A DNA stretch of 64,000 nt, taken from Sphingomonas sp. CL5.1 (GTDB lineage Bacteria; Pseudomonadota; Alphaproteobacteria; Sphingomonadales; Sphingomonadaceae). Within the stretch, counting starts at the first letter, position 1; every line of letters begins with the position of its first letter. The stretch is from NCBI RefSeq assembly GCF_013344685.1, contig NZ_CP050137.1:62001-126000 (forward strand), written 5' to 3'. A model generated the notes under the pieces. That model did no database searches, was not told the DNA's origin, and was given only the letters and a program-made list of their open reading frames with translations. Position numbers and translations under genes: made by a program. This document shows, in pieces, positions 2,530 to 42,824 of this stretch.

Positions 2530-2949
2530 TGGGCAGCGTGAAAGCGGCGCCGAATAGACCGTAACCGAACGGCAGACAAGCGCGAAGGGTTTTATCCGCC
2601 GTCCAGCTAAGCGACACTCTACGTCCGGCTTACTATATGGAAACGCTTCGGAAAATTCGTACTCGCCCGTCTTGATGGGCATGACTGCGGCACTGTCAGC
2701 GACGTCACGCCAATCTAAAGGATAGCCGCTCATGGGGGCTATCAGGGCGCAAGAGCTTGCCTGAAATTTCCGGCTGTGGAGATCCACTACGGTAGCGCCC
2801 CCGCCTAGTTTAAATGACCGCTATTGTCAGGGTCGGACGTCCGCATGTCAGGAGCGAATGTCGTCACGTCGGCGGGGGCCTCGGCGCATTCCTGTTCATC
2901 AGCTCGAAAGCGTTCTTCAGACGGCCAATCTGGCCATCGGAGAATGATC

Positions 2950-3582
2950 ATGGAGATGCCTAAAACTGAACCCACCACCACCAAGCGCCCGGTCTGGAAT
3001 GCGGGAAGAACTGTCGGCGCAAAGCGCGCTCTGAAACCGAAGAAAATATGGGAGATCCGATTTTACCTCAACCAGCGCCGCCGCTTGCGAGATCGGGCGC
3101 TGTTTGACTTGGCGATCGATAGCAAACTCCGCGGCTGCGACCTGGTGCAAATGAAGATCGGCGACCTTGTCAGCGGCGGGCAGATCCGAACGCGTGCCAT
3201 CGTGATGCAGCAGAAAACAGGTCGGCCGGTTCAGTTCGAACTCCTTCCAGACGCCCGGGCCAGCCTGCGGGCGTGGCTTGATCGGCGGGGCGGCACGGTT
3301 GACGACTATGTCTTTCCGAGCCGTGTTGATCACAATGGCCATCTCAGCACCCGCCAGTATGCCCGGCTCGTTGACGAATGGGTGACAGGGGTCGGTCTGA
3401 TGCGAAGCGAGTATGGCACGCACTCACTTCGCCGGACGAAGGCGTCGATCATCTACAGGGCGACCGGCAACCTTCGCGCCGTCCAGATCCTTCTCGGTCA
3501 TAGCAAGATCGAGAACACGGTGCGCTAGCTCGGGATCGACGTGGAAGACGCGCTCGCCCTTGCTGAAAATACCGAAATCTGA
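2950..3582 (+). pseudogene. Tyrosine recombinase/integrase with an amber codon at the catalytic Tyr
   Basis: Phage-type site-specific recombinase. The visible catalytic set is Arg in KLRGCDLV, Lys in QQKTG, His and Arg in THSLRRT, and His in LLGHSKIENT. The next expected residues are VR-Tyr-LG; here the codon is TAG (3526-3528). The same frame then continues with LGIDVEDALALAENTEI to TGA 3580-3582, exactly the tail expected for this family. ATG 2950 has a GGAGA site 6 bases upstream. The product stops at 192 residues without its nucleophile unless amber readthrough occurs. A sequencing error is also possible. Confidence 0.75.
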
Positions 3583-3610: not shown

Positions 3611-3778
3611 GGCCAACTTCGCGATGCTTGGGACAAAGCCGTCGTTTGCCGGTTCGACGAGGAACGTCGGCTCCCGTTGCAAACCGACATTCGAATGCTT
3701 TCGCATCGATGCTCCTGAACGAGAAACTCAGGCCACTAGCTGCTTGGCAAACTTCGGGCGGCCGCGGTGGTGCGCAGC

Positions 3779-5446
3779 CTATACCGGAGTCCCTATAACC
3801 GGCGGATCGATCGGCTCGCACGCATCAGGATCGATCCCGTAATATTGTCGGAACTGGCGCTTGGCGAGCGCGATGAGGGCGGCATTGTCGCTCTTCCCGG
3901 TGAGCCATTTGAAGTCGTAGCGGAAAGGCCCCGGCCGCAGGGTCCATTGGAGCGCCAGATCGTACACGAGCATGCCAGTGAAGAAGGTCTGCACGAGCAT
4001 CTTGATGTTTTGATCGCTGCGACCGGGCATCGCGCGCGGAAAGATCTGCTCCGTATCGACTCGGTCTTGAAAGAGGGACAGATGATCGACAAGGAGAGCG
4101 CCCTCCTCTGGCGTCGCCTTCCCGCCGGCCAGCCACATGCCGGGCCAGCAGAAGAATTCGGGTCGCTTCAGCTTGTCGCGACAGAAGGCGATATAGTGCG
4201 CGACCATGACGCGCACTGGCGTGTTCACGGCCTTGAAGCCAAATGTGCGATGCTCCTCCATCAGCGCATCGACCGGACCACCATCTCCCAGAAGACCGAC
4301 GACCGCCTCAAGGGCTGTACGCGGATGGTCATAGCCGCAACGGTCGGTCAGTCGACCCGCGATATAATCATATTCGAGGGCGGAATAGGTCTGCACGCCT
4401 TTTGCAAGTTCCGGCGCCTCCGCCGCAGCCAGACACAGAAGCGTGAAACGGGCCCCGGCATCCACATCGCTGATGAGGTCGTCGAAATGCTCGATATCCA
4501 GCGGAAAACCGCGCGTGGGGTTGATCGCCAGATCGCAGATCAGAAGGAAGAGACCGACTAGCGGGTCGTCGCAGCGCTCTGGCCATTGCGTGGCCGTCAG
4601 CTTGAGGAACAGCTCGAAGGCATCCCCGTAGAGTGGCGCGAAACAGCCGTCGTCGCGATAGATCTGAAGCAGTTCGGGGCCGCCGGCCGACGCCAGAAAC
4701 TGGATCTGACAGAAGCGGGCTTGGCCCTCAAAGATGTGGCGCAGGCCGATCTCCGCGTAGGGCGGCCGCGGACCATAAGGGAAGCCTTCGCTGCGCTCGG
4801 CATGCAGCCGGCGGGTTTCCGCATCCCAGCTCTCGGGATCGGGAAACTGGCCGTCAGCGAAGTCACATGAGCCGTTGATGGCGCTGACGGTGTCGCCATA
4901 GGCCTTCAGATAGCTGTGCCCCACACCGAGGAAGAAGGGCAAGCGCTCATGCTCCAGCACCGACTTGGGAAAGAAGGCGAGTTGCTTGTAGTAATTGATA
5001 TCGAGTGCGTTGTTGACGGCGACATTGCCGGCAACGAGCCCTGGATCGAGGGTCGGCGTGCCGTCGATCAGAGAGCGATCTGTCCATGCCTTGACCGGCT
5101 TCACGGCGCCGACCTCGCGCGCAAAATCCGCGAGGAAGCCCATGCTGCCATAGACCTGTGCGGGATAGGCCAGACTCAGGATCAGGCCTGCTGTCGATCC
5201 AACGTGCTGCCACCAGTGGATCGTTTCATGCAGATAGGTGGAATAGGCCTGATACAGTTCGGCCGTGTCATAGCCGTCCGTTTCCTGCCGGGTGATGGCA
5301 TCGACCAGTTCGTGCGTGCGGGGGCTCAGGCGCAGCACGAAATGCTCCGTCGTGTACGTGCCGAACGCGTTGATGGTCGCCTCGAACACAGTCTGATCGC
5401 TGCCGGGATTGAGCAGGGCCGGGTCAAGATCGGAAAACCGAAGCAT
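3779..5446 (-). CDS. HExxH-motif protein, last gene of the retron-type operon
   Basis: 555 aa, family not recognised. Residues 73-77 read HETIH, followed by WWQH: a zincin-like HExxH motif preceded by a helix (YQAYSTYL). The remainder is acidic and helical, with no signal peptide or clear membrane segment, so it is probably cytosolic. It starts 4 bases after the stop of the upstream gene and is the last of four genes transcribed leftward from the retron promoter. Zinc binding and peptidase activity are inferences from the motif. Its position makes it a candidate effector or effector partner of the reverse transcriptase. Confidence 0.6.
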   Translation of the reverse strand: MLRFSDLDPALLNPGSDQTVFEATINAFGTYTTEHFVLRLSPRTHELVDAITRQETDGYDTAELYQAYSTYLHETIHWWQHVGSTAGLILSLAYPAQVYGSMGFLADFAREVGAVKPVKAWTDRSLIDGTPTLDPGLVAGNVAVNNALDINYYKQLAFFPKSVLEHERLPFFLGVGHSYLKAYGDTVSAINGSCDFADGQFPDPESWDAETRRLHAERSEGFPYGPRPPYAEIGLRHIFEGQARFCQIQFLASAGGPELLQIYRDDGCFAPLYGDAFELFLKLTATQWPERCDDPLVGLFLLICDLAINPTRGFPLDIEHFDDLISDVDAGARFTLLCLAAAEAPELAKGVQTYSALEYDYIAGRLTDRCGYDHPRTALEAVVGLLGDGGPVDALMEEHRTFGFKAVNTPVRVMVAHYIAFCRDKLKRPEFFCWPGMWLAGGKATPEEGALLVDHLSLFQDRVDTEQIFPRAMPGRSDQNIKMLVQTFFTGMLVYDLALQWTLRPGPFRYDFKWLTGKSDNAALIALAKRQFRQYYGIDPDACEPIDPPVIGTPV

Positions 5447-5450
5447 CGGG

Positions 5451-7061
5451 CTAATCCTTGCTCGTAAAGATGGCGGTGGGATATTCGCGGAAGATCCACT
5501 CGTCGCCGCCGCCTTCCTCGCTCAAGAACTGGACTGTGTTCTCCACCATGTCCGGATTTCCATGACCGGTCGGCAGGGGAAACTGGCGCACGAGGAAGGT
5601 GGCGGGAATGCGAATAGCGCCGTCATGCTCCCATTGATGGATGCGCTCCATGTACGCACGGGTACGGTTGTCGGCCACACCGGAGCGCGCGCCCTCGGGA
5701 TAGGCGACATAGACCAGCCCGAACTCCCCGCGAGGGACCTGCGTCACCGCCTTCGCGAACAGGCCCAGCGGCGCCCGGCTCCGCTTGGTGATCGCGGCCT
5801 CGGCGTCGACCCGCCAGGCGAGACCCACCGGCGAGCGGACCCGGTCTACGGCTGCGGCGGGCGGTCCGTCGATCTGACAGATGATGCCATCCCAGCTCGG
5901 CATCTCCAGGTTCCAACCGAAAACCTCCTTCAGCATGATCGGGCTGTACGCCTTCGTCACCTCGTCGAGTTCGACGCGACGTGGCAGCGGTCGAAACGCA
6001 ACGCTGCCCCAAGGGTAGGCGAGCAGCCGCTCGGGATGCGCGGCAAGCCGCTGCCGGAGGCACGTCGCGGCGACATCCGCGATATCGACCGCGCTGGCTT
6101 CCACCGAGAACGCAACCTCGTACGTGCCGAACTGGCCGCGGGTCATCGCACCAGCCCTGAGCAGACGAAACAGGTCACGCATCCGCGCTTCCTCACCGAT
6201 CTCATAGACCGTGAGCGCCGCGCTGCGCTTGCACTCGACGACCATGTTGAAGGCGTCGGTGCAACGCAGATCAGGCGATTTGACGCTCGTTGGCTCGACG
6301 AAGACCATGGCTCGGCCCTTCGCCGAGCAAGCAGCAGCGACGAGAAGCTCGAACATGATCGCATCGGTCTCGGCGCCGGAATAGAGGGCGTCGATCCTCT
6401 CTTCGGCGCCACCAACCGCCCGCAGCGCCTCGATCCGCCGCCCGAGCTGCGCGAGCTGGGTTACGGCCAGCGCGCCGCCGAAATGGTCGTAGCGCGGATC
6501 GTTGGCGAGATAGTCCTTCGCCAATATCATGGTCTGACGAAGCCGGTGTCCCTTCGGCCGTTCGCTTTCCAGTCGCACGCCCTTCACGATCGAGACGGGC
6601 TGATCGTCGGCCACCGATGAAAGGCGAAAAAGGTCGGCAGGTTCCTGTTCGAACCAGCCGCTTGGCGCGTGGCGTTCGATGAGCTCGATCGCCTCGGGCA
6701 GATGGTCCTCGACATAGGCGGTCGCAGCCGGTGCCTCGTCCACGATCGATGCCCGACTGAGCCTCGGGAAAGGGTCGCCGACCGGCTCTCTCTCCTCGGC
6801 AAGATCGTCCGGATCGATCCCGGCGGCCTCGAACGTGGCCGCGACCGCGGCATCGAGATCGACACGGGCCCGTTGCGCGCGCTCGATCGCCGCTTCCATT
6901 GCCGTTTTGGCAACTTCGGTCCGCTCGACGAAATATCGGCGGCGCAATTCCATCACCTTAGGCCATTCCACATCGAAGGCCTGCTGGCGGCGATCCAAGT
7001 CTTCCACGAGCACTCTGAGATGCTCGGGCATGTCATCGGGGAGTGGGGGAAAGGCCGGCAT
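5451..7061 (-). CDS. PD-(D/E)xK-like protein in the retron-type operon
   Basis: 536 aa. The N-terminal ~90 residues look like a long charged helix or coiled coil (DLDRRQQAFD... ERAQRARVDLDAAV). The middle carries E238, then SPDLR with D264, then VVECK with E276 and K278. That spacing is typical of PD-(D/E)xK nucleases such as restriction enzymes, so a nucleic-acid-cutting effector is plausible. It lies between the reverse transcriptase (37-base gap) and the HExxH gene (4-base gap). The family was not recognised and the nuclease call is inference from residue pattern. Confidence 0.6.
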   Translation of the reverse strand: MPAFPPLPDDMPEHLRVLVEDLDRRQQAFDVEWPKVMELRRRYFVERTEVAKTAMEAAIERAQRARVDLDAAVAATFEAAGIDPDDLAEEREPVGDPFPRLSRASIVDEAPAATAYVEDHLPEAIELIERHAPSGWFEQEPADLFRLSSVADDQPVSIVKGVRLESERPKGHRLRQTMILAKDYLANDPRYDHFGGALAVTQLAQLGRRIEALRAVGGAEERIDALYSGAETDAIMFELLVAAACSAKGRAMVFVEPTSVKSPDLRCTDAFNMVVECKRSAALTVYEIGEEARMRDLFRLLRAGAMTRGQFGTYEVAFSVEASAVDIADVAATCLRQRLAAHPERLLAYPWGSVAFRPLPRRVELDEVTKAYSPIMLKEVFGWNLEMPSWDGIICQIDGPPAAAVDRVRSPVGLAWRVDAEAAITKRSRAPLGLFAKAVTQVPRGEFGLVYVAYPEGARSGVADNRTRAYMERIHQWEHDGAIRIPATFLVRQFPLPTGHGNPDMVENTVQFLSEEGGGDEWIFREYPTAIFTSKD

Positions 7062-7098
7062 CAGGACGCGCCTACGGCTGGGAGAGCGCCGTCAATCG

Positions 7099-8070
7099 CT
7101 AGGCTGCCTTGTCGACAGCGGCCGCTATAAGCGCACCTGCGGCGATCCGACGCTTGAGATCCCGCCATTGGCAGTGATGGAACTCGGCGCGCGAACGGCA
7201 CCGGGAATCGATCTGCGCCGCCTCATAGAGGCGGGAGACCAGCTTGGGATAAAGCCGCAGCTTCTCGGCGTCGTCCGAGCACGCGGCAATCTCGCGCGCC
7301 GCATGGCTGATCTTCTGCCAGCGGGAGAAGGGAAGCGCGATGCCGTCCGGCCCGACCACCACGCCCGTCACGATCTTCACGGTGTCGCCCGTGAACGACC
7401 GATCCTTGTGCGCACGCAGGCCCGCCTTGAAGATCGCCGATCGCGCTTCATGGAGGACCGCGCGCGATGCGCCGGGGCCGGACATCGTGATGTCGTCGAC
7501 ATAGCAGGTCATGACTAGGCCATGCTGGGCAGCGAGCCCCGCAAGCCCGTCGAACAGCGACTTGTAGGCGTAGTAGGAAATGATCGGGCTGATCGAGCTG
7601 CCGGTCGCCAGAACGCCGCGGTAGCAGATCAGGTTAGCGAGCAGGCCAGCCACGTCCGGTGCGCAAGACAGCACATCGCGAAAGAAGTGCATGACCTTGT
7701 GCTGCGGGACCGACTGATAAAATTTCGCGATGTCGATCTTCAGCAGCTTGCCATCGCCGACATGGGCGCGCGCATTGGACAGGTACGAACGGCCCTTCAC
7801 GGCTGAATGAAGATAAACCGGCACCTCGATCCGGGCCAGATACCGATGCAATTGCCGGTGGAGGCTCTGCAGCGCGGCACCCGGCTCCTGGATCTCACGG
7901 CCGGTGTCCTTGTGGTTGTAGACGCGGTAGCCGCCGTACGCGGCCAGACTGTCGAGCTTGTTCAGCTCCCAACCCAGCCGCTTTGCCAACGCGTGCGGCG
8001 ACCGGATGCCATACAGGTGGCAGCGGTCAATCGGTATGCGCGGTTGCTTTGCCTGCTTCCCCTGGCTCAC
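7099..8070 (-). CDS. Retron-type reverse transcriptase
   Basis: 323 aa from GTG 8070, with a purine-rich ribosome-binding site (GGAAGGGGAAG). Polymerase motifs are in order: LKIDIAKFYQSV (residues 109-121), ATGSSISPIISYYAY, and catalytic YVDD (190-193). Two features specific to retron enzymes are present: NAxxH (NARAH, 99-103) and VTG (233-235). Length and motif order fit a stand-alone retron RT, which reverse-transcribes part of a linked structured RNA into msDNA. The gene overlaps the upstream XRE gene by 44 bases and is followed by two uncharacterised genes. The retron subtype is not assigned. Confidence 0.9.
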   Translation of the reverse strand: MSQGKQAKQPRIPIDRCHLYGIRSPHALAKRLGWELNKLDSLAAYGGYRVYNHKDTGREIQEPGAALQSLHRQLHRYLARIEVPVYLHSAVKGRSYLSNARAHVGDGKLLKIDIAKFYQSVPQHKVMHFFRDVLSCAPDVAGLLANLICYRGVLATGSSISPIISYYAYKSLFDGLAGLAAQHGLVMTCYVDDITMSGPGASRAVLHEARSAIFKAGLRAHKDRSFTGDTVKIVTGVVVGPDGIALPFSRWQKISHAAREIAACSDDAEKLRLYPKLVSRLYEAAQIDSRCRSRAEFHHCQWRDLKRRIAAGALIAAAVDKAA

Positions 8071-8356
8071 CGTCTTCCCCTTCCGCTACCCATTCCAGCA
8101 TCTTCAAAACCTTGTCGGCAACAAAGACACGCGCCTTGTCGAAGGTCGTGCCCGCTCCCTGTTCCGCAAACAGCATGAGGGACGACAAAGGAACCTCGAA
8201 CCGTTCGGCATATTTCTTGAGAACCTCTAGGCTGGGCTCTTTCTTGTTGCGCTCGATCTCATTCAAATAAGACCGAGAGATATTGATCTGTTCGGCAAGA
8301 TCGGACTGCGACAGCCTATGATACTGCCTGATTGTCTTCAACGCTCTGTCATACAT
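8027..8356 (-). CDS. XRE-family helix-turn-helix protein, first gene of the retron-type operon
   Basis: 109 aa. Residues ~5-60 form a classic XRE HTH (LSQSDLAEQINISRSYLNEIERNKKEPSLEVLKKYAERF). An acidic C-terminal tail follows. ATG 8356 has a clear GGAGG site 6 bases upstream. Its last 44 bases overlap the start of the reverse transcriptase, so the two are translationally coupled. HTH proteins are known accessory components of several retron types, acting as operon regulator or antitoxin partner. Which applies here is unknown. Confidence 0.85.
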   Translation of the reverse strand: MYDRALKTIRQYHRLSQSDLAEQINISRSYLNEIERNKKEPSLEVLKKYAERFEVPLSSLMLFAEQGAGTTFDKARVFVADKVLKMLEWVAEGEDGEPGEAGKATAHTD

Positions 8357-8549
8357 AAGTGCCTCCGCAACCTCCGTTGGGAGAGTTAAGGGGGGATTAC
8401 GTCAACATGTCCCAGATCTTCGCGCCCACACGTACCGCCTTCAGGATGAAATCCAGGGCGGCCGCCGCGGCCTTCCAAGTCGTCGGCTTCAGAAGAGCAT
8501 CCCGAATTGGATGCCCCCGTCGGCTAGTCTTCGCACGCTTCTTCTCAGC

Positions 8550-8790
8550 ACTCGGTGAGGGAATAGTTCCCATAGGTAGTTCTCCTACACGCTCGCCCCA
8601 GGATTAGGACCAGCTCCACCAGCAGGAGTACAACGAGAGAAGAAGCATCCCCCCGAAACCCTTCGCGTCCGGTCCACACGGACGCGCCTTATCGGTGCCG
8701 TCGGCGGTCCCCTCGCGGGGGGCCCTCAAGCTCCTGACAAGTGTGAGGATCAGCCGAAGCAGACCCCGCAGGTGATTACTCACCCAGAGT
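8550..8790 (-). ncRNA. Candidate msr-msd RNA of the retron
   Basis: The ~460-nt stretch upstream of the XRE gene has no convincing protein gene but is full of stems when read leftward. A possible a1/a2 closing pair is ACTCTGGGTGAG (8790-8779) with CTCACCGAGT (8559-8550): 10 base pairs with a 2-base bulge. Inside lie a perfect 8-bp stem CGCGTCCG/CGGACGCG with a 7-base loop (8664-8686), a CCCC-CGCGA-GGGG stem, and a short GGTGA-GTAA-TCACC stem that competes with a1. A retron RNA is expected beside the RT, so position supports the call. The exact boundaries and branching G are not resolved. Confidence 0.4.
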
Positions 8791-8828
8791 TCAGTGGGAT
8801 GTTGCCTATGTCCCGAATGCTTGACGCT

Positions 8829-8857
8829 CATATGCGGAAGACGTCGCCGAGTGTCAA
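8829..8857 (-). promoter_or_regulatory. Promoter of the retron-type operon
   Basis: Read leftward, a perfect -35 TTGACA (8857-8852) is followed after 17 bases by CATATG (8834-8829), or after 19 bases by TATGAG. It lies just upstream of the structured leader and points into the XRE-RT operon. No other promoter-like pair was noticed between here and the XRE start. Confidence 0.5.
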
Positions 8858-9228
8858 CACATATTCGCTGGTAGCGAACAATTTTCTTCTAAGGGCGTCA
8901 ATTTTGCTGCCTCGATGAAGGCGAGTGTTCCCCTGAAAGTAAAGCGGCGATCTCAAAAATGGCCGGATCGTGAACCGAAGAGCGGCTTGCCATTCTTCAC
9001 AGCCAAGGCGATCTCCTTGGCGCACATAGGTCCGTTATCAGAAGCGTCGTCATATCGACCAATGAACGTAAATCAGGGCCCGCTGCCGCCCATCAAGTCC
9101 ATGAGACATATGGCGGATCTTGGCACAAGCTGCCGTCGGCGGCGCTTCTGCTGAACGGCGTAGTTTGGTCGCGTGCCGACGAACGGGAATGATGCGGAAA
9201 CGACGGCGGGGACCAGGCATCGGAACGG
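8858..9228. other. Intergenic region between retron promoter and traD
   Basis: About 370 bases with only short, unconvincing reading frames on both strands. It is somewhat lower in GC near 8870-8960. No repeat, terminator-like T run or RNA gene was identified. It lies behind the end of traD and upstream of the retron promoter. Confidence 0.5.
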
Positions 9229-9916: not shown

Positions 9917-9946
9917 GAAGTGCGCGCTTATACGTCGTACCGACGT
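9917..9946. other. Candidate oriT/nic region
   Basis: Between divergent traC and traA, the + strand reads AAGTGCGCGCTTATACGTCG and is followed by an inverted repeat ACGTCG-TAC-CGACGT (9932-9946). The GTGCGC...TTATACGTCG part resembles the Ti-plasmid/IncQ-type nic region as I remember it. Location is the main support. The exact nick position is not assigned. Confidence 0.5.
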
Positions 9947-9976
9947 CGCGCTGTGTGGCGTAAATGGATTGCCGTC

Positions 9977-12559
9977 ATGGCGATCTACCACTTCTCGACA
10001 AAGATCATCTCGCGCGGCGCAGGCCGGAGCGCCGTCGCAGCGGCAGCCTATCGCTCGGCCTCGCGAATCCCTGACGAACGGCTCGGGCGTGATCATGACT
10101 TCACCAACAAGTCGGGCGTCGTCCATTCCGAGATCCTGCTCCCCGAGGGCGCCCCCGAGCGGATGCTCGACCGCGAAACGCTATGGAACGAGGTCGAGGC
10201 GGCCGAAAAGCGCAAGGACGCGCAGCTCGCCCGCGAGGTGGAGTTCGCCATTCCCAGAGAAATGACACAGGAACAGGGCATCGCGCTTGCCCGCGAGTTT
10301 GTCTCCCGCGAGTTCGTCGAACGCGGCATGGTCGCCGATCTCAATGTGCATTGGGATATCGGCGCGAACGGCGAAGCCAAGCCGCACGCGCATGTCATGC
10401 TTAGCCTGCGCGCGGTCGGCCCCGAAGGGTTCGGCGCCAAGGAGCGTGAATGGAATGCGACGGCGCTGCTGCAGCACTGGCGCGCGGCATGGGCCGGGCA
10501 TGTCAACGCGCGCTGCGCCGAACTCGGCATCGAGGCGCGCATCGACCATCGCTCCTATGAGGCGCAGGGCATCGAGCTTGAACCGCAACACAAGATCGGC
10601 GCGGCCGGCGCACGCCGCGAGGCGAACGGCGAGGATGCGGAACGCGCAGGGGATCATCGTGCCATTGCGCGCGAGAACGGGAACCTGATCATCACCGATC
10701 CGCGCATCGGCCTGGACGCGCTGACCCACAGCCAGGCGACCTTTACGGTGCGTGATCTCGCGATGTTCGCGCATCGTCATTCGGATGGTCAGGACCAGTT
10801 CGATCGCGTGCTGGCCAGCATGCGTCATCACCAATCCGTTCTCGCGCTCGGCCGCGACGGGCACGGCGCCGAACGCTTCACCACGGCCAACATGATGCGC
10901 GCCGAAGAAGCGCTTGTGCGTGATGCGGAGCGGCTCGCCGCATCGCGCCGTCATGCCGTCGCGCGCGGCGATAACGAACATGCCGTCGGCAATGCGGGGG
11001 CACGTGGGTTGCGGCTCAGCACGGACCAGCGCGCCGCCCTCGATCATGTGCTGCGCACACCCGGCCTCGCGCTGGTGGTCGGTTACGCCGGCGCGGGCAA
11101 ATCCGCGATGCTTGGGCTGGCGCGCGAGGCGTGGGAGGCGGCCGGCTATACCGTGCGCGGCGCGGCGCTGTCGGGAATCGCGGCGGAAAATCTCCAGGGT
11201 GGTTCCGGCATCGTGTCGCGTACCATCGCCAGCCTCGAGCATGCGTGGGCGAAGGACCATGACCGGCTTGGCTCCCGCGACGTACTGGTGATCGACGAGG
11301 CCGGCATGGTCGGCACCCGCCAGCTTCAGCGTGTGTTGGCCGAGGCCGCCGGAGCCGGCACCAAGGTGGTGATGGTAGGCGACGTCCAGCAATTGCAGGC
11401 GATCGAGGCCGGCGCCGCGTTTCGCCTGCTCGCCGAACGGCACGGCGCCGCCGAAATCGGCGAGGTGCGCCGGCAGTCGGCGGAATGGATGCGCGAGGCG
11501 ACACGGGCCTTCGCTTGCCAGCGGACCGGCGAGGCGCTGGCCACCTATGCCGATCACGGCATGATCCATACCGCTACCACACGCGATGCGGCGCGCGCGG
11601 CGCTGATCGATCGCTGGGATGCCGAGCGGCGCGACGCGCCGACAGCCTCGCGGATCATTCTCACCCATACCAACCGGGAGGTTCAGATGCTCAATCGTGC
11701 CGCGCGCGAACGGCTCCACGACCAGGGCGAACTCGGCGTCGATATCGCGATCCATACCGAGCGTGGCGTGCGCGACTTCGCCGAGCATGACCGCATCATG
11801 TTTTTGAGGAACGAGCGCGACCTCGGGGTAAAGAATGGCACGCTCGGCACCGTCGAGAAAGCGGCCTCCGACAGATTGGCCGTGAGGCTCGATGACGGCC
11901 GCCGGATCGGCGTCGAGCTCAGCAATTACGCGCATGTCGATCATGGCTATGCCGCCACCGTTCACAAGGCGCAGGGCATGACCGTCGATCAAACGCATGT
12001 GCTGGCGACACCGGGGCTCGATGCGCACTCCGCCTATGTCGCGCTCAGCCGCCATCGCCACGCCACCGCGCTGCACTATGGCCGTGATGACTTCGCCGAT
12101 GAGGCGACGCTGCGCCGCACGCTGGCGCGCGAGCGGCCCAAGGACATGGCGCTCGACTATGATCGGCGGATTGCGTCGTCGGCGCGGCAGCAAGGTGCGA
12201 CCGGCTCGCGTACGCAGAGCGACAGTGGAACGACCGCGCCGCATATGCAGCCGCGCGGGTTTGCCGCACTGGTTTCGCGAGTGCTCGGCCGGTCGGGCGA
12301 CGAGCGCACGCCCGCGCCGGATGCTGGCCGGGATGCTGGCGACGATCGTGGCCCGGCATCAGGCGCGCAGGGAACGAACGCTGCCGGCAACCGCAGTGCC
12401 GATCCGGCGAACAGCGAGCAGGCGAAGGCGCTGCGCGCGATGATGGCGGCGCGGCACAATGCGCCGCGCCACACGCCGGAATCGATGCGCGAAGCGCTGG
12501 CCATGGCGAAGAAGGCACCTGCCGCGTCGCGCGAGCAGGATTATGGAGCGGAGCGGTGA
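9977..12559 (+). CDS. traA: Ti-type conjugative relaxase/helicase TraA
   Basis: 860 aa from ATG 9977 (MAIYHFSTKIISRGAGRSAV), the usual start of MobA/MobL-type TraA; a longer frame begins at 9920 without similarity. The N-terminal relaxase domain carries the metal-binding histidines in NGEAKPHAHVMLSLR. A helicase domain follows, with Walker A GYAGAGKSA, Walker B VLVIDEAGMV and the RecD-like VHKAQGMTVD motif. The protein nicks oriT and unwinds DNA for transfer. It is shorter than the ~1,100-residue Ti TraA and its C-terminus is Ala/Arg-rich and degenerate. It is followed directly by the coupling-protein gene. Confidence 0.92.
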   Translation: MAIYHFSTKIISRGAGRSAVAAAAYRSASRIPDERLGRDHDFTNKSGVVHSEILLPEGAPERMLDRETLWNEVEAAEKRKDAQLAREVEFAIPREMTQEQGIALAREFVSREFVERGMVADLNVHWDIGANGEAKPHAHVMLSLRAVGPEGFGAKEREWNATALLQHWRAAWAGHVNARCAELGIEARIDHRSYEAQGIELEPQHKIGAAGARREANGEDAERAGDHRAIARENGNLIITDPRIGLDALTHSQATFTVRDLAMFAHRHSDGQDQFDRVLASMRHHQSVLALGRDGHGAERFTTANMMRAEEALVRDAERLAASRRHAVARGDNEHAVGNAGARGLRLSTDQRAALDHVLRTPGLALVVGYAGAGKSAMLGLAREAWEAAGYTVRGAALSGIAAENLQGGSGIVSRTIASLEHAWAKDHDRLGSRDVLVIDEAGMVGTRQLQRVLAEAAGAGTKVVMVGDVQQLQAIEAGAAFRLLAERHGAAEIGEVRRQSAEWMREATRAFACQRTGEALATYADHGMIHTATTRDAARAALIDRWDAERRDAPTASRIILTHTNREVQMLNRAARERLHDQGELGVDIAIHTERGVRDFAEHDRIMFLRNERDLGVKNGTLGTVEKAASDRLAVRLDDGRRIGVELSNYAHVDHGYAATVHKAQGMTVDQTHVLATPGLDAHSAYVALSRHRHATALHYGRDDFADEATLRRTLARERPKDMALDYDRRIASSARQQGATGSRTQSDSGTTAPHMQPRGFAALVSRVLGRSGDERTPAPDAGRDAGDDRGPASGAQGTNAAGNRSADPANSEQAKALRAMMAARHNAPRHTPESMREALAMAKKAPAASREQDYGAER

Positions 12560-14298
12560 TGGCGCCCGGCGGTGGACGCGGCTCCGAGCCAATCGTCCAG
12601 CAGATCGCATTTCTCTCGGCGCTCGCGGCGATCGGCCTGTGCTGGCCGCTGGTCCGGATGCAGGTTCCGGCCGACAGCCGATTTGGGTTCGTCGATCTCG
12701 CATGGGAGCATTGGGCGCATCGACACGCGCTTGAACCCTGGCTCGAACAGCGTTGGGCGTGGCTCGCGCTCCACGGCTATCACCTGTGGTTTGCGCTGGC
12801 GATGCTGCCCGGCAATGTCGCGGTCGCCATCGTCCAAAGCGTGGATCGGCGCACGTTCTGGCCCCTCCTCTACGCGCCGCTCGGGTGGCTGGGTGGCATC
12901 GTGCTGGGCTACTGGCTCTACACCAGCTTCCGGACCGACAGTTGGCCGCTCGCGGTGATGATGCCGGCGGCGTTCGCATTCCTGGGCGGTGCCGTCGCCG
13001 CACGGCTCGCCGCCATGCCCCGCAAGGTTACGCATCTCCGGGGCACGCGCATGGGCGGGTTCACCGGCAGGCGTGGCGGACGGCTGCGCGCGCGGCTCAC
13101 CGGCGGGGTGGCGCTCGCGGGCGTGCCGCTTTCCCGCGAAGACGAAACCATGCATGTCGCCGCGATCGGGGCAACCGGCTCGGGCAAGTCGACCGCGCTG
13201 CGCGCCCTGATGGGCGACGCGCTTCGTCGTGGCGATCGTCATATCGTCGCCGATCCCGAGGGTGCGTCGATGGACGTCTTCCTCGCGCCCGGAGACGTGA
13301 TCCTCAATCCGTTCCACACGCGCTGCGCGCGATGGGATCTGCTCGCCGAGATCGAGCGCCCCGGGGATCACGCCTTCCTCGCCCAGTCGCTGCTGCCGCA
13401 TCTCGGCATCGGCGAGCATGACCAGTGGATCACCTATGCCCAGCAGCTACTCGCGGCGGCGCTGGAGAATTTTGGGCGGATGGGGCTCGGCACGACCAGC
13501 GACCTGATCAATATGCTCGCCTCCGGCTCGATCGCCGAACTGAAACTATTGTGCCAGGGGACGGCCGCCGCGCGGTATTTTGAGCCGGGCGGCGAAAGGA
13601 TGCTCGCCAGCATCCTCGGTACGCTGGCTCCGGCGGTCGGGAATCTCCGGTTCATCGCCAGTCTCGAGGGCGAGCCGTTCTCGATCCGGCGATGGGTGCG
13701 ATCGGGGTCGGGCTCACTCTGGATGCCCTATACCGGCAATCAGGTCGCGGCACTGCGTGGGCTAATCTCCTGCTGGATCAATATCGCCATTACCGAAACA
13801 TTGTCGCTCGCCCCTGATCGTCATCGGCGCATCTGGTTTCATGTCGACGAGCTGGACTCGCTCGGCCGGATCGAGGGATTGAAGGACGCCCAGGCCCGGC
13901 TCAGAAAGTTCGGCGGCTGCGTCGCAATCGGGTTCCAGTCGTTCGCTCAGGTCAAGGCGGTTTACGGCGAAGCCGCCAACACCATCATCGAGAATTGCGG
14001 GAACCTGTTGCTGCTCCGCTGCGGCGCCAGCGACGGCGGCGGCACCGCCCGTCTCGCCGCCGAACTGATCGGGGAGCACGAAATCGAACGCGACGAGGTC
14101 AGCCGATCGCGCACGCAGGGGCGCTTCACGTCGCGTTCCATGTCGACGCAGCCGCGGCGGGCGGTCGAGGATACGGTGCTCGCCAGTGAGATCATGCAGC
14201 TTGCCAACAACCAAGGCTATGCGAAACGCGCGACCAGCCCTCGCTGGGTCAGGGTCTCATTCCCGCTGGTGAAGAACCCCCATCACGCCAATCTTTGA
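12559..14298 (+). CDS. Type IV coupling protein (TraG/VirD4 role, TraD-type AAA domain)
   Basis: About 579 aa. The start ATG overlaps the traA stop (TGATG), so the genes are co-translated; GTG 3 bases upstream is an alternative. The N-terminal third has several hydrophobic membrane segments. The ATPase domain shows Walker A GATGSGKST, then RHIVADPEGASMDVF and a later IWFHVDELDSLGR Walker B region. This fits the TraD/TrwB DNA-binding family, which brings the relaxase-DNA complex to the secretion channel. The matching channel genes (trb) lie 21 kb away on the other strand. Confidence 0.88.
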   Translation: MAPGGGRGSEPIVQQIAFLSALAAIGLCWPLVRMQVPADSRFGFVDLAWEHWAHRHALEPWLEQRWAWLALHGYHLWFALAMLPGNVAVAIVQSVDRRTFWPLLYAPLGWLGGIVLGYWLYTSFRTDSWPLAVMMPAAFAFLGGAVAARLAAMPRKVTHLRGTRMGGFTGRRGGRLRARLTGGVALAGVPLSREDETMHVAAIGATGSGKSTALRALMGDALRRGDRHIVADPEGASMDVFLAPGDVILNPFHTRCARWDLLAEIERPGDHAFLAQSLLPHLGIGEHDQWITYAQQLLAAALENFGRMGLGTTSDLINMLASGSIAELKLLCQGTAAARYFEPGGERMLASILGTLAPAVGNLRFIASLEGEPFSIRRWVRSGSGSLWMPYTGNQVAALRGLISCWINIAITETLSLAPDRHRRIWFHVDELDSLGRIEGLKDAQARLRKFGGCVAIGFQSFAQVKAVYGEAANTIIENCGNLLLLRCGASDGGGTARLAAELIGEHEIERDEVSRSRTQGRFTSRSMSTQPRRAVEDTVLASEIMQLANNQGYAKRATSPRWVRVSFPLVKNPHHANL

Positions 14299-35048: not shown

Positions 35049-36242
35049 TCAGCCACCGTTCCACGCCTCGAGGACAAGATCGCGGCTAACAAGCACGCGC
35101 ACCCGCGCGCCTGGCCGCACGGTGATCGTCGGCTGCACATCGAGCTGCCGGCCGACGATCCTGTCGCCGACGCTCTCGACCGATCGCGCTGCGCTCTCGC
35201 GGATCGCGAATGCGATATCATTGTTGCCACCACCTCCCGCCGTCGCGGCATTGGCGCCGACGCCAAACAGGGTGGACAGCAATCCCGCGGTGAGCAGCTT
35301 GCCGGTATGACTGTTGACCCGATCGGCGAACCCCGACTGCCCGGCGGCATCGGTGCCGATCATCCGGTCGAGGTCGATCGAGCGGCCATCGGGGAAGATC
35401 ATCCGCGTCCAGACCACCAGCGCGCGGGTCTGCCCGTAGGTAACGCGCGCATCATAGCTGCCGATCAGCCGCGTTCCCTGCGGCACGAGCCGCGTGGCGC
35501 CGGTCACGCTATCGAACACATCCTCGGTCACTTGCGCCACGACCTGGCCGGGAAGATCGGAGGACAGGCCGGTGATCAGCGCCGCGGCGATCGTCGAGCC
35601 CGCCAATACCACATAGCGTCCGGCAGATAAGGCGATCCGGCCGCTGTTGACGGTCGGCTCGCGCGCACCGCCGGCAACGAACGCGGCCTTGCGATCCTGC
35701 GCGTCGGCATTCGCGATCGGCGCTGCGGCGGGCGTAGCAGGCTGCGCGGTCGATGCAGACGGCGAGTCCGCGCTGACGACGGTCGTCCGAGTACCTTCGC
35801 TGGTTCCGGCAAACAGCTTGCTCGCGCGCGCGCTGTCGTTTTGCTGGCGCCCGCGCTGCCGGTCGGCGGCAGCCTGGTTGTCGAGCGGCGTAGATGGGAC
35901 GACCGTGCCGGCGGTGGTCGACGTGACGGATGTTCGGCGCGTAACCGGCGGTGCGCCGATCCCCGCCGAGGCGATGCGGGCCAGATCACCATAATCCTTC
36001 GGCGCGCCGGCCAGCGCAGCGGTTTGGCGGCGGTCGATCGATACCGTCTGCCGCGCGGCGACGGTGCGATGCCCCTGGCTCAGGCTGTAGCCGAGCGCCG
36101 CCGCCACGCTGATCGCAGCCACGCCCGCCAGCGTGGCCAGCGCCCGCCGTGACAGCCTGCGCGGAACCGGCGGGGCCGCGCGCGTGGGGATCGGCGCCGG
36201 CCGGGGCGGCGAGCCCGTCCCGAGATCGTCGCGCCCGCTCAC
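35049..36242 (-). CDS. trbI: Conjugal transfer protein TrbI (VirB10-like)
   Basis: 397 aa from GTG 36242, which overlaps the trbG stop. A short cytoplasmic N-terminus rich in Pro is followed by one membrane segment (RRALATLAGVAAISVAAALGYSL), a linker, and the conserved C-terminal VirB10 domain (VLAGSTIAAALITGLSSDLP, VPQGTRLIGSYDARVTYGQT). It spans inner and outer membranes in the mating channel. It is the last gene of the trb operon. Confidence 0.9.
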   Translation of the reverse strand: MSGRDDLGTGSPPRPAPIPTRAAPPVPRRLSRRALATLAGVAAISVAAALGYSLSQGHRTVAARQTVSIDRRQTAALAGAPKDYGDLARIASAGIGAPPVTRRTSVTSTTAGTVVPSTPLDNQAAADRQRGRQQNDSARASKLFAGTSEGTRTTVVSADSPSASTAQPATPAAAPIANADAQDRKAAFVAGGAREPTVNSGRIALSAGRYVVLAGSTIAAALITGLSSDLPGQVVAQVTEDVFDSVTGATRLVPQGTRLIGSYDARVTYGQTRALVVWTRMIFPDGRSIDLDRMIGTDAAGQSGFADRVNSHTGKLLTAGLLSTLFGVGANAATAGGGGNNDIAFAIRESAARSVESVGDRIVGRQLDVQPTITVRPGARVRVLVSRDLVLEAWNGG

Positions 36243-39512: not shown

Positions 39513-40251
39513 GGAACAGCGACACGCTTTGCGCGACGTAAGGCGAGCCCGCCCGCGAGAACCGCCGCGCCTGCTCGCGGCCCTGCGCTTCGTCGGCGGC
39601 CGCGCGCGCCGCTGCGATGCTCGCCGAGCGCGCCTGGGCGGCGAGCATCGTGGTCAGATCGGCAAGCTGGCGGGTTTCGAGCGCGATCAGCTGGTTGCCC
39701 GCCTGCGCCGCCTGAAGCGCGCCGGTCGAGCTCTGACTCGCGTCGACGAGCGTGCCGACATGGGCGCGCGTGTCGTCGAGATTACCGGCGACCGTGGCGG
39801 AAGTCCGTAACGTATCCTGATACGCGGCGAGCGCGTCGTGCCAGCGGGCCTGCGCGTTGGCGACGAGATCGGCCGAGCTGGTGCCCGACAGCGATCCGGC
39901 CGGGTAACGCTGGTTGAACACCCGGTCGATGTCCGAGACGTTATAGGCGACCTGCTGCGCCTGCTGAATGAGTTGCCGCGTGCGGTCGATATCCCGCTGG
40001 ATCGGCGCGAGGATGCTGGTCGGCAGGCTGGCGAGGTTGCGCGCCTGGTTGATCAGCGATTGCGCCTGATTCTGGATTTGCGTGATCTGATTGTTGATCT
40101 GGCTAAGCGCGCGCGCGGCAGTCAGCACGTTCTGCGCGTAATTGCTCGGGTCATAGACAATGCCGCCAAACTGCGCGTCGGCCGGGGCGGCGAGCACAAG
40201 CGCCATCGCGGCGGCGCCGGACAGCAGCGGACGGAAGGAGCGAATCTTCAT
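39505..40251 (-). CDS. trbJ: Conjugal transfer protein TrbJ (VirB5-like)
   Basis: 248 aa secreted protein. A signal peptide (LLSGAAAMALVLAAPADAQF) is followed by FGGIVYDPSNYAQNVLTAAR, the typical TrbJ start. A long coiled-coil-like Gln-rich helix comes next (INNQITQIQNQAQSLINQAR). VirB5-type proteins are minor pilus components involved in adhesion. The start overlaps the trbE stop (ATGA). Confidence 0.9.
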   Translation of the reverse strand: MKIRSFRPLLSGAAAMALVLAAPADAQFGGIVYDPSNYAQNVLTAARALSQINNQITQIQNQAQSLINQARNLASLPTSILAPIQRDIDRTRQLIQQAQQVAYNVSDIDRVFNQRYPAGSLSGTSSADLVANAQARWHDALAAYQDTLRTSATVAGNLDDTRAHVGTLVDASQSSTGALQAAQAGNQLIALETRQLADLTTMLAAQARSASIAAARAAADEAQGREQARRFSRAGSPYVAQSVSLFRD

Positions 40252-42824
40252 GACAGAAACTCCTCAGTTTCGGGGGTGGAAGCGGACACGGTCCCGGCCG
40301 CGATCAGCTCGGCGGCCCAGCCGAGGCCGCGATAATGGAGCCATACCTCGGGGAAGCGGTCGGTGCCGTAGCGCTCGACCAGCGCAGCAATCGCGTTGAG
40401 GTCGGTGCGCGACGATGCGGCGGCAAAGGCCAGCGCGACCGGGCCGATGCCGAGATCGAACAGGCGATTGCCGAGCGACGACTGGCAATAATAATCGCGC
40501 TTGGGCGTGGCGCTCGCGATGATCTGGATCTGGCGATCGTTGAGCCCGAACCGGCGATAGATCGCCATGATCTGCGGTTCGAGCGCGCGCTCATTGGCGA
40601 GGAAAATGCGCGTCGGGCAACTCTCGATGATCGCGGATGCAATCGCCGAGCCTTCGATATCGGCGAGGCTCTGCGTGGCGAAGATCACGCTGGCGTTCTT
40701 CTTGCGCAGCGTCTTCAGCCATTCCTTCAATTGGCGGACGAACAGCGGATCGTCGAGCGCGAGCCACCCTTCGTCGATCACGATCAGGGTCGGCCGCCCG
40801 TCGAGGCTGCCTTCGATGCGATGGAACAGATAAGCGAGCACCGCGGGACCGGCGGGCGTGCCGACCAACCCCTCGGTCTCGAACGTCTGGAACGCGCCTT
40901 CGCCGAAATGCTCGATATCGCCATCGAGCAGCCGCCCGTAGGGTCCGTCGAGCGTATAGGACGCCAGCGCGCGCTTGAGGCCGGACACCTGGATCAGCGC
41001 CGTGAGGCCGGTCAGCGTGCGCTGTTCAACTGGCGCATCGGCGAGGCTGCCCAGTGCGGTCCAGAGATGCTCCTTCACCTCCGGGGGACAAGCAAAACCT
41101 TCACGCACGAGGATCGCGGCCAGCCAATCGGACGCCCATGCCCGTTCATCCGGTGCGTCGATCCGCGCCAGCGGCTGGAGCGACACCGGCACAGCGTTGT
41201 CGCTTAAGCTCCCACCAAGATCGTGCCACTCGCCCCCGACACCGTGGGTCGCCGCGCGCATCGAGCCGCCGTGGTCGAACGCGAATATCTGGGCTTGCCC
41301 GTAGCGGCGGAACTGGAGCGCCATGAAGGCGAGCAGCACACTCTTGCCCGATCCGGTCGGGCCGATGATCAACCCGTGGCCGACATCGCCGACATGGATC
41401 GCGAAGCGAAACGGGGTCGCCCCTTGCGTCCGCGCGTGGAACAGCGGCGGGGCATCGAAATGGGTATCGCGATCCTGCCCGGCCCATATTGCCGAGACCG
41501 GCATGATGTGCGCGAGGTTGAGGGTCGAGATCGGCGGCTGGCGGACATTGGCGTAAGGGTTGCCGGGCAGCGAGCCAAGCCACGCTTCCACCGCGTTCAG
41601 CGTTTCTGCGATGCACGCAAAATCCCGGCCGCGCACGATCTTCTCGATCGCCTGCAGGCGAAGATCGGCATCGCGTGGGGTATCGCCAAGCACGGTAATG
41701 GTAGTGGTGACATAGGCGTAGCCAGCGATATCGGCGCCGAGATCCTGCAACGCCGCATCGGCTTCTGCCGACTTGTTGGCGGCATCGCTGTCGACCAGCA
41801 CGCTCACCTCATTGGTCAGCACTTCCTTGACGATCGCGGCGACGCTCTTGCGCTTGGCGAACCACAGCCGCCGGATGCGGGTCAGCATCCGCTGCGCCGA
41901 CACCTTGTCGAGCGTGATCGCGCGCGTGGTCCAGCGATAAGCGAAGCCCAGCCGGTTCAGCTCGTCGAGCATCCCCGGCACGGTCGCGGCGGGAAAGCCG
42001 GTGATGGAAAGGCACCGCAGATGCTTCGCGCCCAGTTGCGGCGCGAGCCCGCCCAGCAGCACTTCGTCGGCAAGCAGCGCGTCGAGGTGCATCGGCGTCT
42101 CTGGCACCGCGATGCGCTGTTCGTGCGTGGAGACGGTGGAATGGAGGTAGGTCAGCGTCTCGCTGTCCGAGAGCCACGCGGCCTCGGGCATCACGCCCTC
42201 TACCTGATCGAGCACCCGGCCGGTCTCGCGCTCGAAATCGTCGAGATGGTCGGCTGCGGTCGCTATCGCCTGCGCGCGCCCTCGGCCGCCATTCCAACGA
42301 TGCTTCGCATCGCCGGAACCTTGGGCGGCTCCGCCCTCGTAGAGCAGCGATGATGCCTTCGAGGTGTCGTCGGCCGGCGGCAGCCATTGCAAGGTGAGAT
42401 AGAAGCTGCTGGTGAAGTTGGGCTGGTTGATATCGCCCCGTCCGCCGCCATTCCAACGATGCTGCGCATCGCCGGAACCTTGGGCGGCTTCGCCTTCGAA
42501 CAGGTCGCGACGCTCCTCGTCGATCAACGCCGATACCGGGTCGGCGAACCCGTCCGACACTGGATAGCCGGGCGCGGCCCTGCGCTGCGCCTCGACGTAG
42601 ATCGCCCAGCCAGTGCCGAGCCGCTTCAACGCCGAATTGAGCCGGGCCGAGGTCGCGATCAACTCGGCCTGCATCGCGCTGTCGAGGTCGGGACCGCGAA
42701 AGCGTGCGATGCGAAGGAAGCTGCCGTCCTTGTTGAGGATGATGCCGGGCGCGATCAGCGCCGCCCATGGCAGGAAATCGGCGAGCCGCGATGCGTGACG
42801 GGCATGTTCGCGCAGGAACAGCAT
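40248..42824 (-). CDS. trbE: Conjugal transfer ATPase TrbE (VirB4-like)
   Basis: 858 aa. Walker A is GPTGSGKSVLLAFM and Walker B lies in RPTLIVIDEGWLALDDP. The N-terminal CagE-type domain is interrupted by two in-frame peptides: GEAAQGSGDAQHRWNGGGRG after RRDLFE, and GGAAQGSGDAKHRWNGGRGR after SSLLYE. Both are encoded by copies of one palindromic element. The rest of the protein aligns in length and motif order with family members as I know them, so the element seems tolerated. TrbE powers pilus assembly and substrate transfer. Confidence 0.9.
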   Translation of the reverse strand: MLFLREHARHASRLADFLPWAALIAPGIILNKDGSFLRIARFRGPDLDSAMQAELIATSARLNSALKRLGTGWAIYVEAQRRAAPGYPVSDGFADPVSALIDEERRDLFEGEAAQGSGDAQHRWNGGGRGDINQPNFTSSFYLTLQWLPPADDTSKASSLLYEGGAAQGSGDAKHRWNGGRGRAQAIATAADHLDDFERETGRVLDQVEGVMPEAAWLSDSETLTYLHSTVSTHEQRIAVPETPMHLDALLADEVLLGGLAPQLGAKHLRCLSITGFPAATVPGMLDELNRLGFAYRWTTRAITLDKVSAQRMLTRIRRLWFAKRKSVAAIVKEVLTNEVSVLVDSDAANKSAEADAALQDLGADIAGYAYVTTTITVLGDTPRDADLRLQAIEKIVRGRDFACIAETLNAVEAWLGSLPGNPYANVRQPPISTLNLAHIMPVSAIWAGQDRDTHFDAPPLFHARTQGATPFRFAIHVGDVGHGLIIGPTGSGKSVLLAFMALQFRRYGQAQIFAFDHGGSMRAATHGVGGEWHDLGGSLSDNAVPVSLQPLARIDAPDERAWASDWLAAILVREGFACPPEVKEHLWTALGSLADAPVEQRTLTGLTALIQVSGLKRALASYTLDGPYGRLLDGDIEHFGEGAFQTFETEGLVGTPAGPAVLAYLFHRIEGSLDGRPTLIVIDEGWLALDDPLFVRQLKEWLKTLRKKNASVIFATQSLADIEGSAIASAIIESCPTRIFLANERALEPQIMAIYRRFGLNDRQIQIIASATPKRDYYCQSSLGNRLFDLGIGPVALAFAAASSRTDLNAIAALVERYGTDRFPEVWLHYRGLGWAAELIAAGTVSASTPETEEFLS
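42282..42335. repeat. Palindromic in-frame element, copy 2 (in trbE)
   Basis: About 54 bp. Outer arms are GGCCGCC and GGGCGGC; the inner stem is CGATGC-TTC-GCATCG. It differs from copy 3 at only about 3 positions. It encodes AAQGSGDAKHRWNGG on the minus strand. Confidence 0.75.
42441..42494. repeat. Palindromic in-frame element, copy 3 (in trbE)
   Basis: About 54 bp with the same architecture as copy 2 (arms CCGCCGCC and GGGCGGC; inner stem GATGC-TGC-GCATC). It starts 159 bases from copy 2 in the same gene, same orientation and same reading frame. It encodes AAQGSGDAQHRWNGG. Confidence 0.75.

Follow-up and report, generated by a model that had tools for sequence, protein, structure and literature searches.

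A type VI retron followed by a predicted nuclease–metalloprotease cassette in Sphingomonas sp. CL5.1

Main finding

A minus-strand locus of Sphingomonas sp. CL5.1 probably consists of two defence modules, arranged head to tail within a single transcription unit: a type VI retron and a separate nuclease–protease cassette. Both modules most likely sit on a conjugative element. Positions refer to the window, the 64,000-nucleotide stretch of DNA that was analysed, and all features described lie on its minus strand. Module one (8880-7099) would comprise a promoter, a structured ncRNA as the msDNA template, and genes for an amphipathic peptide of 58 aa, for an XRE protein and for a reverse transcriptase (RT). 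Module two (7064-3779) would be a mobile cassette, encoding a PD-(D/E)xK nuclease and an HExxH metalloprotease, that landed directly behind the RT.

The first-pass annotation described four genes, with their motifs, as a tight operon. Coordinates and translations bear it out, and recomputing the spacing gives the same values: the XRE and RT genes overlap by 44 bases, and gaps of 37 and 4 bases separate the RT gene from the third gene and the third gene from the last, which encodes a protein with a HETIH motif. Its list of four genes stands, but it overlooked the ncRNA (8642-8804) and the 58-aa ORF (8397-8573). The four genes are not chance reading frames, given conserved homologues of each and low dN/dS against the nearest relative for the RT (0.08), the third protein (0.11) and the HETIH protein (0.12); for XRE, dS is saturated.

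Type VI retron

By its sequence, the RT operon is a type VI retron. The RT (7099-8070; 323 aa, GTG start; Pfam RVT_1) matches the PADLOC model RT_VI at 1.2e-69, the next best retron model being RT_III-A (3.2e-35). It carries the retron motifs first reported from the raw sequence: YVDD (residue 190), NAxxH (residue 99, NARAH) and VTG (residue 234). The adjoining XRE/HTH protein (8027-8356; 109 aa; Pfam HTH_3) matches HTH_VI at 2.7e-35, so that RT clade and neighbouring HTH protein both agree with the PADLOC definition of the type. An ncRNA lies upstream, as in the described type, and the overlapping XRE-RT order is also that of the 22 other type VI loci, which are the RT loci examined that have an XRE match beside the RT. 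The locus differs from the described type in having a 58-aa ORF between ncRNA and XRE, for which the searched libraries hold no model, and in the two extra genes behind the RT, which are absent from the other 22 loci.

The structured ncRNA (8642-8804), aligned with five relatives, is a candidate msr-msd, which would serve as the template for msDNA. Compensated pairs and model matches both point to a structured RNA upstream of the genes, as in a retron: 17 of 68 predicted pairs have changed on both sides with pairing kept. An ncRNA model (R1) has a single match in the 64 kb window, at 8642-8804. It also matches seven other type VI loci; five of these are its training sequences, and the remaining two, L171 (E 8.5e-4) and L174 (E 0.32), match at the same place. 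No match was seen in 30 other RT loci (0/30). Of the 17 type VI loci on which R1 was not trained, 15 lack a match to it, and a second model (R2), trained on L171 and L174, found nothing further, so support from sequence models is limited to near relatives. A search of the window against Rfam matched no family.

Upstream of the ncRNA, TTGACA (8852-8857) is identical in all four aligned loci and may be the -35-like element of the retron promoter; a consensus scanner found no complete promoter around it. Position 8857, where the first-pass annotation ended its feature, is the first TTGACA base on the minus strand. The palindrome TTCGCTACCAGCGAA (8864-8878) lies directly upstream. It was found as an inverted stem by a stem scan, is partly retained in alignments with relatives and is a candidate operator for the XRE protein.

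Candidate effector peptide

The best candidate for the toxic effector of the type VI retron is the peptide predicted from the 58-aa ORF (8397-8573), which ends 40 bases before the XRE gene. It has a net charge of +8 and an amphipathic C-terminal half. Seventeen homologues of 57-73 aa were found at E <= 1.6e-7. A small ORF precedes XRE in 18 of the 22 other type VI loci compared with 2 of 1120 control genes, a recurrent association with the retron type that is to be read knowing that the ORF criteria were fixed only after viewing the loci; four of the 22 do not satisfy them. Against L115 its dN/dS is 0.17-0.19, and pairwise values reach 0.91 (window versus L126). The product is amphipathic, and it is basic in most type VI loci; in the distant loci L179-L181 the net charge is -5, +1 and -3. 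No description of such an ORF in type VI retrons was recognised in the open-licence retron literature searched.

Under the preferred reading, XRE would repress the operon, and XRE together with the RT-msDNA complex would restrain the peptide. Disturbance of the msDNA complex by a phage would free the peptide, which would damage the membrane and halt the infected cell. Type IV retrons have a two-transmembrane effector. The likeness lies in the proposed killing arm, a small membrane-active protein; the RT is of another type, and the peptide here is amphipathic and about 58 aa long.

It is also conceivable, though we think it unlikely, that the small ORF encodes a leader or regulatory peptide with no toxin involved, and that the XRE-RT-msDNA complex acts as a gene regulator, with neither it nor the pair behind the RT serving as a classical retron effector. 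XRE is indeed the only effector-like family that PADLOC names for type VI, and neither Pfam nor PHROG has a relative of the 58-aa peptide. What speaks for a toxin instead is that an amphipathic helix (hydrophobic moment 0.5-0.75 in most loci) is kept across very different small-ORF sequences, as is the position between ncRNA and XRE in most type VI loci.

Nuclease-like and HExxH proteins

The third protein (5451-7061; 536 aa) is a predicted PD-(D/E)xK nuclease with an N-terminal coiled coil. Its PDx11ExK core starts at residue 263, and the catalytic residues are conserved throughout: E238, P263, D264, E276, K278 and Q337 are invariant in all 26 rows of the alignment. The structure model (pLDDT 86) has elements H232-247, E252-254, E265-267, E274-279, H285-308 and E312-318, an order that fits the PD-(D/E)xK core. 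The protein resembles the superfamily in its invariant E, its PDx11ExK, a Q in a helix and an alpha-beta-beta-beta-alpha-beta order, but differs in that it matches no model of Pfam, NCBIfam or PADLOC. One PHROG of unknown function matched at 4.1e-6, and viral_contigs held no relative. Foldseek returned nothing for the model at E <= 0.001. A second fold search gave no solved relative; its matches were mostly to coiled coils, over residues 8-86, and barely probed the core. One solved chain matched the sequence at E 0.73 and was taken as chance. The nuclease first guessed from D...ExK spacing is roughly right: the catalytic residues hold, while no solved relative of the fold was found.

The HETIH protein (3779-5446; 555 aa) is a predicted zinc metalloprotease of defence islands. 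Its HETIH motif begins at residue 73, and H73, E74, H77 and E240 are invariant in 34 of 34 aligned rows, 33 of them chosen from 120 listed homologues with no selection for the motif; E240 is a candidate further Glu ligand. The model reaches pLDDT 87. The original zincin-like assignment survives in its invariant HExxH, but the likeness to M1 aminopeptidase-like gluzincins is weak and Foldseek found no match for the model at E <= 0.001. Among solved chains the protein has no sequence relative, and it has no match in PADLOC or NCBIfam, nor in Pfam above cut-off.

Loci encoding HETIH homologues were collected by a pattern scan with HET[IV]HWW and QAR motifs, and the best 80 of 99 were kept. HExxH is present in 73 of 76 ORFs of at least 400 aa in these 80 loci, a count biased by the motifs used in the scan. 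Contig edges lie close to some of these loci; L006 starts at HETIH residue 82 and is silent on the upstream gene. Homologues lie tightly behind GmrSD, UvrD/GajB, AbiJ-like or SNase genes, as seen in a scan of 50 of 51 upstream proteins (a short L004 fragment was left out). When adjoining proteins were scanned singly, six of ten had a Pfam match. Viral_contigs contained five HETIH loci and three RT loci.

Relation between the two modules

The first-pass annotation proposed the nuclease and zincin as a new retron effector combination. Neither gene occurs in any of the 22 other type VI loci (one of which, L185, has only 0.5 kb downstream), and no similar RT occurs in the best 80 of 99 HETIH loci. 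The two proteins thus show no recurrent association with the retron type, and the pair was rejected as the type VI effector in the main reading. In the loci compared, homologues of the pair occur away from type VI RTs. The annotation's remark that neither protein matches a known effector agrees with the lack of matches in PADLOC, NCBIfam and, above cut-off, Pfam, and the pair was likewise rejected as a known named system.

Loci that have no retron share DNA homology with the cassette from 3-10 bases ahead of the nuclease gene onward. Blastn homology to L003 and L004 (90-92%) starts at 7064 and 7071; these loci have no RT, and an 801-aa HSDR_N/NTPase gene lies upstream. Homology to L005 (90%), which has the HETIH gene alone, starts at 5476. 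From the other side, the retron carried by plasmid L115 is homologous (72%) as far as 7151; the retron-side border is not sharp because L115, the nearest retron relative compared, has a different RT C-terminus. The full nuclease gene is present in 2 of the best 80 of 99 HETIH loci, and a third, L021, has a 38-residue stretch of it. Plasmids gave no near DNA match to 3700-8900. The setting is that of a defence island and a conjugative element, and no tRNA adjoins the integrase in the window.

The 37-base junction (7062-7098) has no terminator- or promoter-like site on the operon strand. A shared strand, the short gap and the missing terminator make co-expression likely and linked function possible. 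In the preferred reading the cassette would probably work alone, with the nuclease as its toxic arm and the protease as activator or controller.

A retron that had captured the pair as effectors, its RT-msDNA restraining nuclease or protease until a phage trips the complex, seems to us improbable. The tight co-directional order without a terminator and the low dN/dS of both genes would suit it, but neither the 22 other type VI loci nor the best 80 of 99 HETIH loci contain a second case, and this retron has kept its small ORF. A precedent, Retron-Sda1, cuts both ways. PMC12548924 describes retron effectors being replaced by other defence systems and raises a 'nascent association' for Retron-Sda1, which favours capture; it also reports that the HipA/DUF3037 neighbours of this type III RT gave defence when RT and ncRNA were absent, which favours two separate modules. 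The likeness is a (type III-A1-like) RT beside a two-gene module known elsewhere without an RT, and the difference is that Retron-Sda1 is of another type and lacks the usual effector, whereas the retron here retains its own candidate.

More doubtful still is that the HExxH protein serves as a plug-in controller of many defence nucleases, attached as a downstream gene to PD-(D/E)xK, GmrSD, SNase, AbiJ-like and UvrD/GajB partners, and that the pair has now come under retron msDNA sensing; a membrane peptide and a nuclease gated by the protease would then be the two effector arms of the retron. Very improbable is a cassette that recently landed behind the RT as a chance neighbour, neither co-regulated nor a functional unit with the upstream genes: homology that breaks exactly at gene borders and the defence-island and conjugative-element setting would fit, but the pair has no promoter-like site on its strand and so would depend on the retron transcript.

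Implications

A gene that follows a retron RT closely on the same strand is not for that reason an effector, since in the homology maps the nuclease–protease cassette can be separated from the retron at gene borders. Within the libraries searched, the HExxH family, which numbers at least 1068 homologues and has varied defence partners, is a so far unstudied part of defence islands. Those libraries name only the HTH protein beside the type VI RT. If the preferred reading is true, the short gene for an amphipathic peptide between ncRNA and XRE would give type VI retrons a concrete effector candidate, and how these retrons kill or arrest cells would become directly testable.

Operon layout and retron assignment

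The four genes of the operon lie on the minus strand: XRE (8027–8356), RT (7099–8070), a third protein of 536 aa (5451–7061) and the HETIH protein of 555 aa (3779–5446). The motifs, the XRE/RT overlap and the intergenic gaps described in the first-pass annotation all stood when the window's minus strand was re-read. That annotation listed four genes; three further elements lie upstream, namely a TTGACA, a structured RNA and a 58-aa ORF. The TTGACA (8852–8857) is unchanged in all four aligned loci, and adjoining it on the upstream side is a palindrome, TTCGCTACCAGCGAA (8864–8878), a candidate XRE operator. Beside the operon, genes of the PADLOC families capP-like (88–576), beta (605–1720) and cll (1717–2787) form a further defence candidate.

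The RT matches the PADLOC model RT_VI at 1.2e-69 (next best RT_III-A, 3.2e-35) and the XRE matches HTH_VI at 2.7e-35. To define what belongs to such a retron, RT loci were gathered from genomes, plasmids and viral contigs; the type VI set comprises 22 loci outside the window, each with an RT adjoined by an XRE of the window's family.

Alignment and a covariance model place the conserved structured RNA at 8642–8804 (minus strand). Six near relatives share its fold, and 17 of 68 predicted pairs are kept with both sides changed in at least one sequence. The window copy is the model's single match in 64 kb. Over 52 loci the model matched five training copies and, outside training, two loci (L171, E 8.5e-4; L174, E 0.32), both directly upstream of their small ORFs; it matched 0/30 other RT loci and none of the remaining 15 type VI loci. 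Because matches are confined to near relatives and these two loci, the ncRNA is firmly established in near relatives, and for distant ones the model does not prove it.

The predicted nuclease–HETIH cassette

The first-pass annotation proposed the nuclease and zincin-like proteins as a new retron effector combination and called for a census of RT neighbours. Neither phmmer of ORFs nor tblastn found an RT resembling the window's in any of 80 HETIH-family loci (the best 80 of 99 genome loci), and 0/22 other type VI loci encode either downstream protein (in one, L185, only 0.5 kb downstream is visible). DNA matches divide the operon likewise. In Sphingobium lactosutens (L003) and Qipengyuania (L004), a 90–92% match running from 7064/7071 to 3801 covers the nuclease and HETIH genes, with an 801-aa HSDR_N/NTPase gene ahead of the pair in place of the RT. 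Szabonella alba (L005) matches at 90% from 5476 on, the HETIH gene alone, and a Sphingobium plasmid (L115) at 72% from 8815 to 7151, the retron alone. The operon thus consists of three pieces, each known without the others, joined at gene borders. By every association test run, the nuclease and HETIH proteins are not part of the retron, contrary to the proposed combination. A site scan of the RT–nuclease junction found neither terminator nor promoter, so functional linkage is possible; this speaks for recruitment of the pair by the retron as captured effectors, which we consider unlikely given the associations.

The nuclease and HETIH protein are nevertheless a real pair, since their homologue lists have longest-contig values 77489, 46677, 128502 and 31089 in common, read as four shared contigs, and since 38 residues of the nuclease N-terminus are kept directly ahead of the HETIH gene in another locus (L021, 8856–8969). 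At two loci a homologue of the nuclease gene stands without HETIH; at one (L118, 3200–7617; the other is L119) the homologue (42%) adjoins a gene annotated QatA.

Across 26 aligned rows (the query and 25 of 51 homologues found), E238, P263, D264, E276, K278, E321 and Q337 of the third protein are invariant. Its structure model (pLDDT 86, pTM 0.76) begins with a helical hairpin and contains helix 232–247, strands 252–254, 265–267 and 274–279, helix 285–308 and strand 312–318. In this predicted structure the element order fits that of the PD-(D/E)xK core, with D264 and ExK at the expected places. The nuclease-like D...ExK spacing of the first-pass annotation falls on the invariant D264, E276 and K278. 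Comparison with solved structures gave no good match for this protein.

The nearest gene upstream of HETIH lies on the same strand in 65 of the 80 loci and on the opposite strand in 13 (absent at a contig edge in 2), and within −130 to +60 bases in 24. Ten such close upstream neighbours, each with the HETIH homologue directly behind it, were scanned singly and gave a UvrD-type helicase (L019, L020), AbiJ_NTD5 (L067, L081), GmrSD (L070) and SNase (L026), with no match for four; 3 of 50 upstream neighbours scanned jointly match GajB models. At L067, L070 and L081 the HETIH homologue overlaps its partner gene by 4 bases. The S. lactosutens island holds GajA- and GajB-like genes, Shedu SduA and an Mrr-type gene. 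Judged from these neighbourhoods, HETIH is a defence-island gene with changing partners, and a metalloprotease by prediction. The 801-aa protein of L003 (4968–7373) combines HSDR_N with a weak STAND-type NTPase match and has no PADLOC match.

A candidate retron effector

The 58-aa ORF (8397–8573, minus strand) follows a ribosome-binding-like AGGAG. An ORF of about 33–82 codons, ending ~35–80 bases ahead of XRE, is present in most of the 22 type VI loci. Criteria chosen after the loci had been viewed (length 40–90 aa, a ribosome-binding-like motif, a hydrophobic moment of 0.5 or more and a Kyte-Doolittle value of 1.0 or more) select 18/22 of these loci vs 2/1120 other genes. The four exceptions are an ORF too short (L173), one plainly homologous to the window's but lacking a ribosome-binding motif under the pattern used (L126) and two out of frame (L127, L185). 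Protein search with the peptide gave 18 homologues at E ≤ 1; 17 reach 1.6e-7 or better, and these are 57–73 aa long. The window ORF has a dN/dS of 0.19 against L115 (0.17 under another alignment), 0.25 against L184, 0.48 against L125, 0.63 against L183 and 0.91 against L126; these ratios clearly indicate purifying selection in near pairs only.

The window peptide has a net charge of +8 and a hydrophobic moment of 0.60, and the products are basic in most other type VI loci. Those of L179 (−5), L180 (+1) and L181 (−3) are acidic or neutral and longer (68–82 aa), possibly another peptide family. The recurrent amphipathic peptide is likely the true effector of the retron; against this reading stand the post hoc criteria and the three distant peptides that are not basic. 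The founding classification paper of retron types may already mention this small ORF.

Proposed mechanism and setting

With families, conservation and module borders of retron and cassette observed, we infer each functional step. XRE would repress the retron operon and RT would make msDNA; RT-msDNA, with or without XRE, would restrain the amphipathic peptide until a phage trigger released it, leading to membrane failure. The cassette would act as a nuclease under protease control, co-transcribed with the retron here and probably independent. It would resemble HipA/DUF3037 beside Retron-Sda1, reported in PMC12548924 as independent of the retron.

Directly beyond the HETIH gene, and convergent with it, is a tyrosine integrase (2824–3528, plus strand; Phage_integrase 1.2e-20). 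Together with a MobA/MobL relaxase (9920–12559), a coupling protein (12556–14298), TrbI (35049–36242) and a TrbE-like protein (40248–42824), it points to an integrative conjugative element. By gene content, including the PADLOC-matched genes at 88–2787, the retron and its neighbouring cassette reside on a defence-bearing conjugative element.
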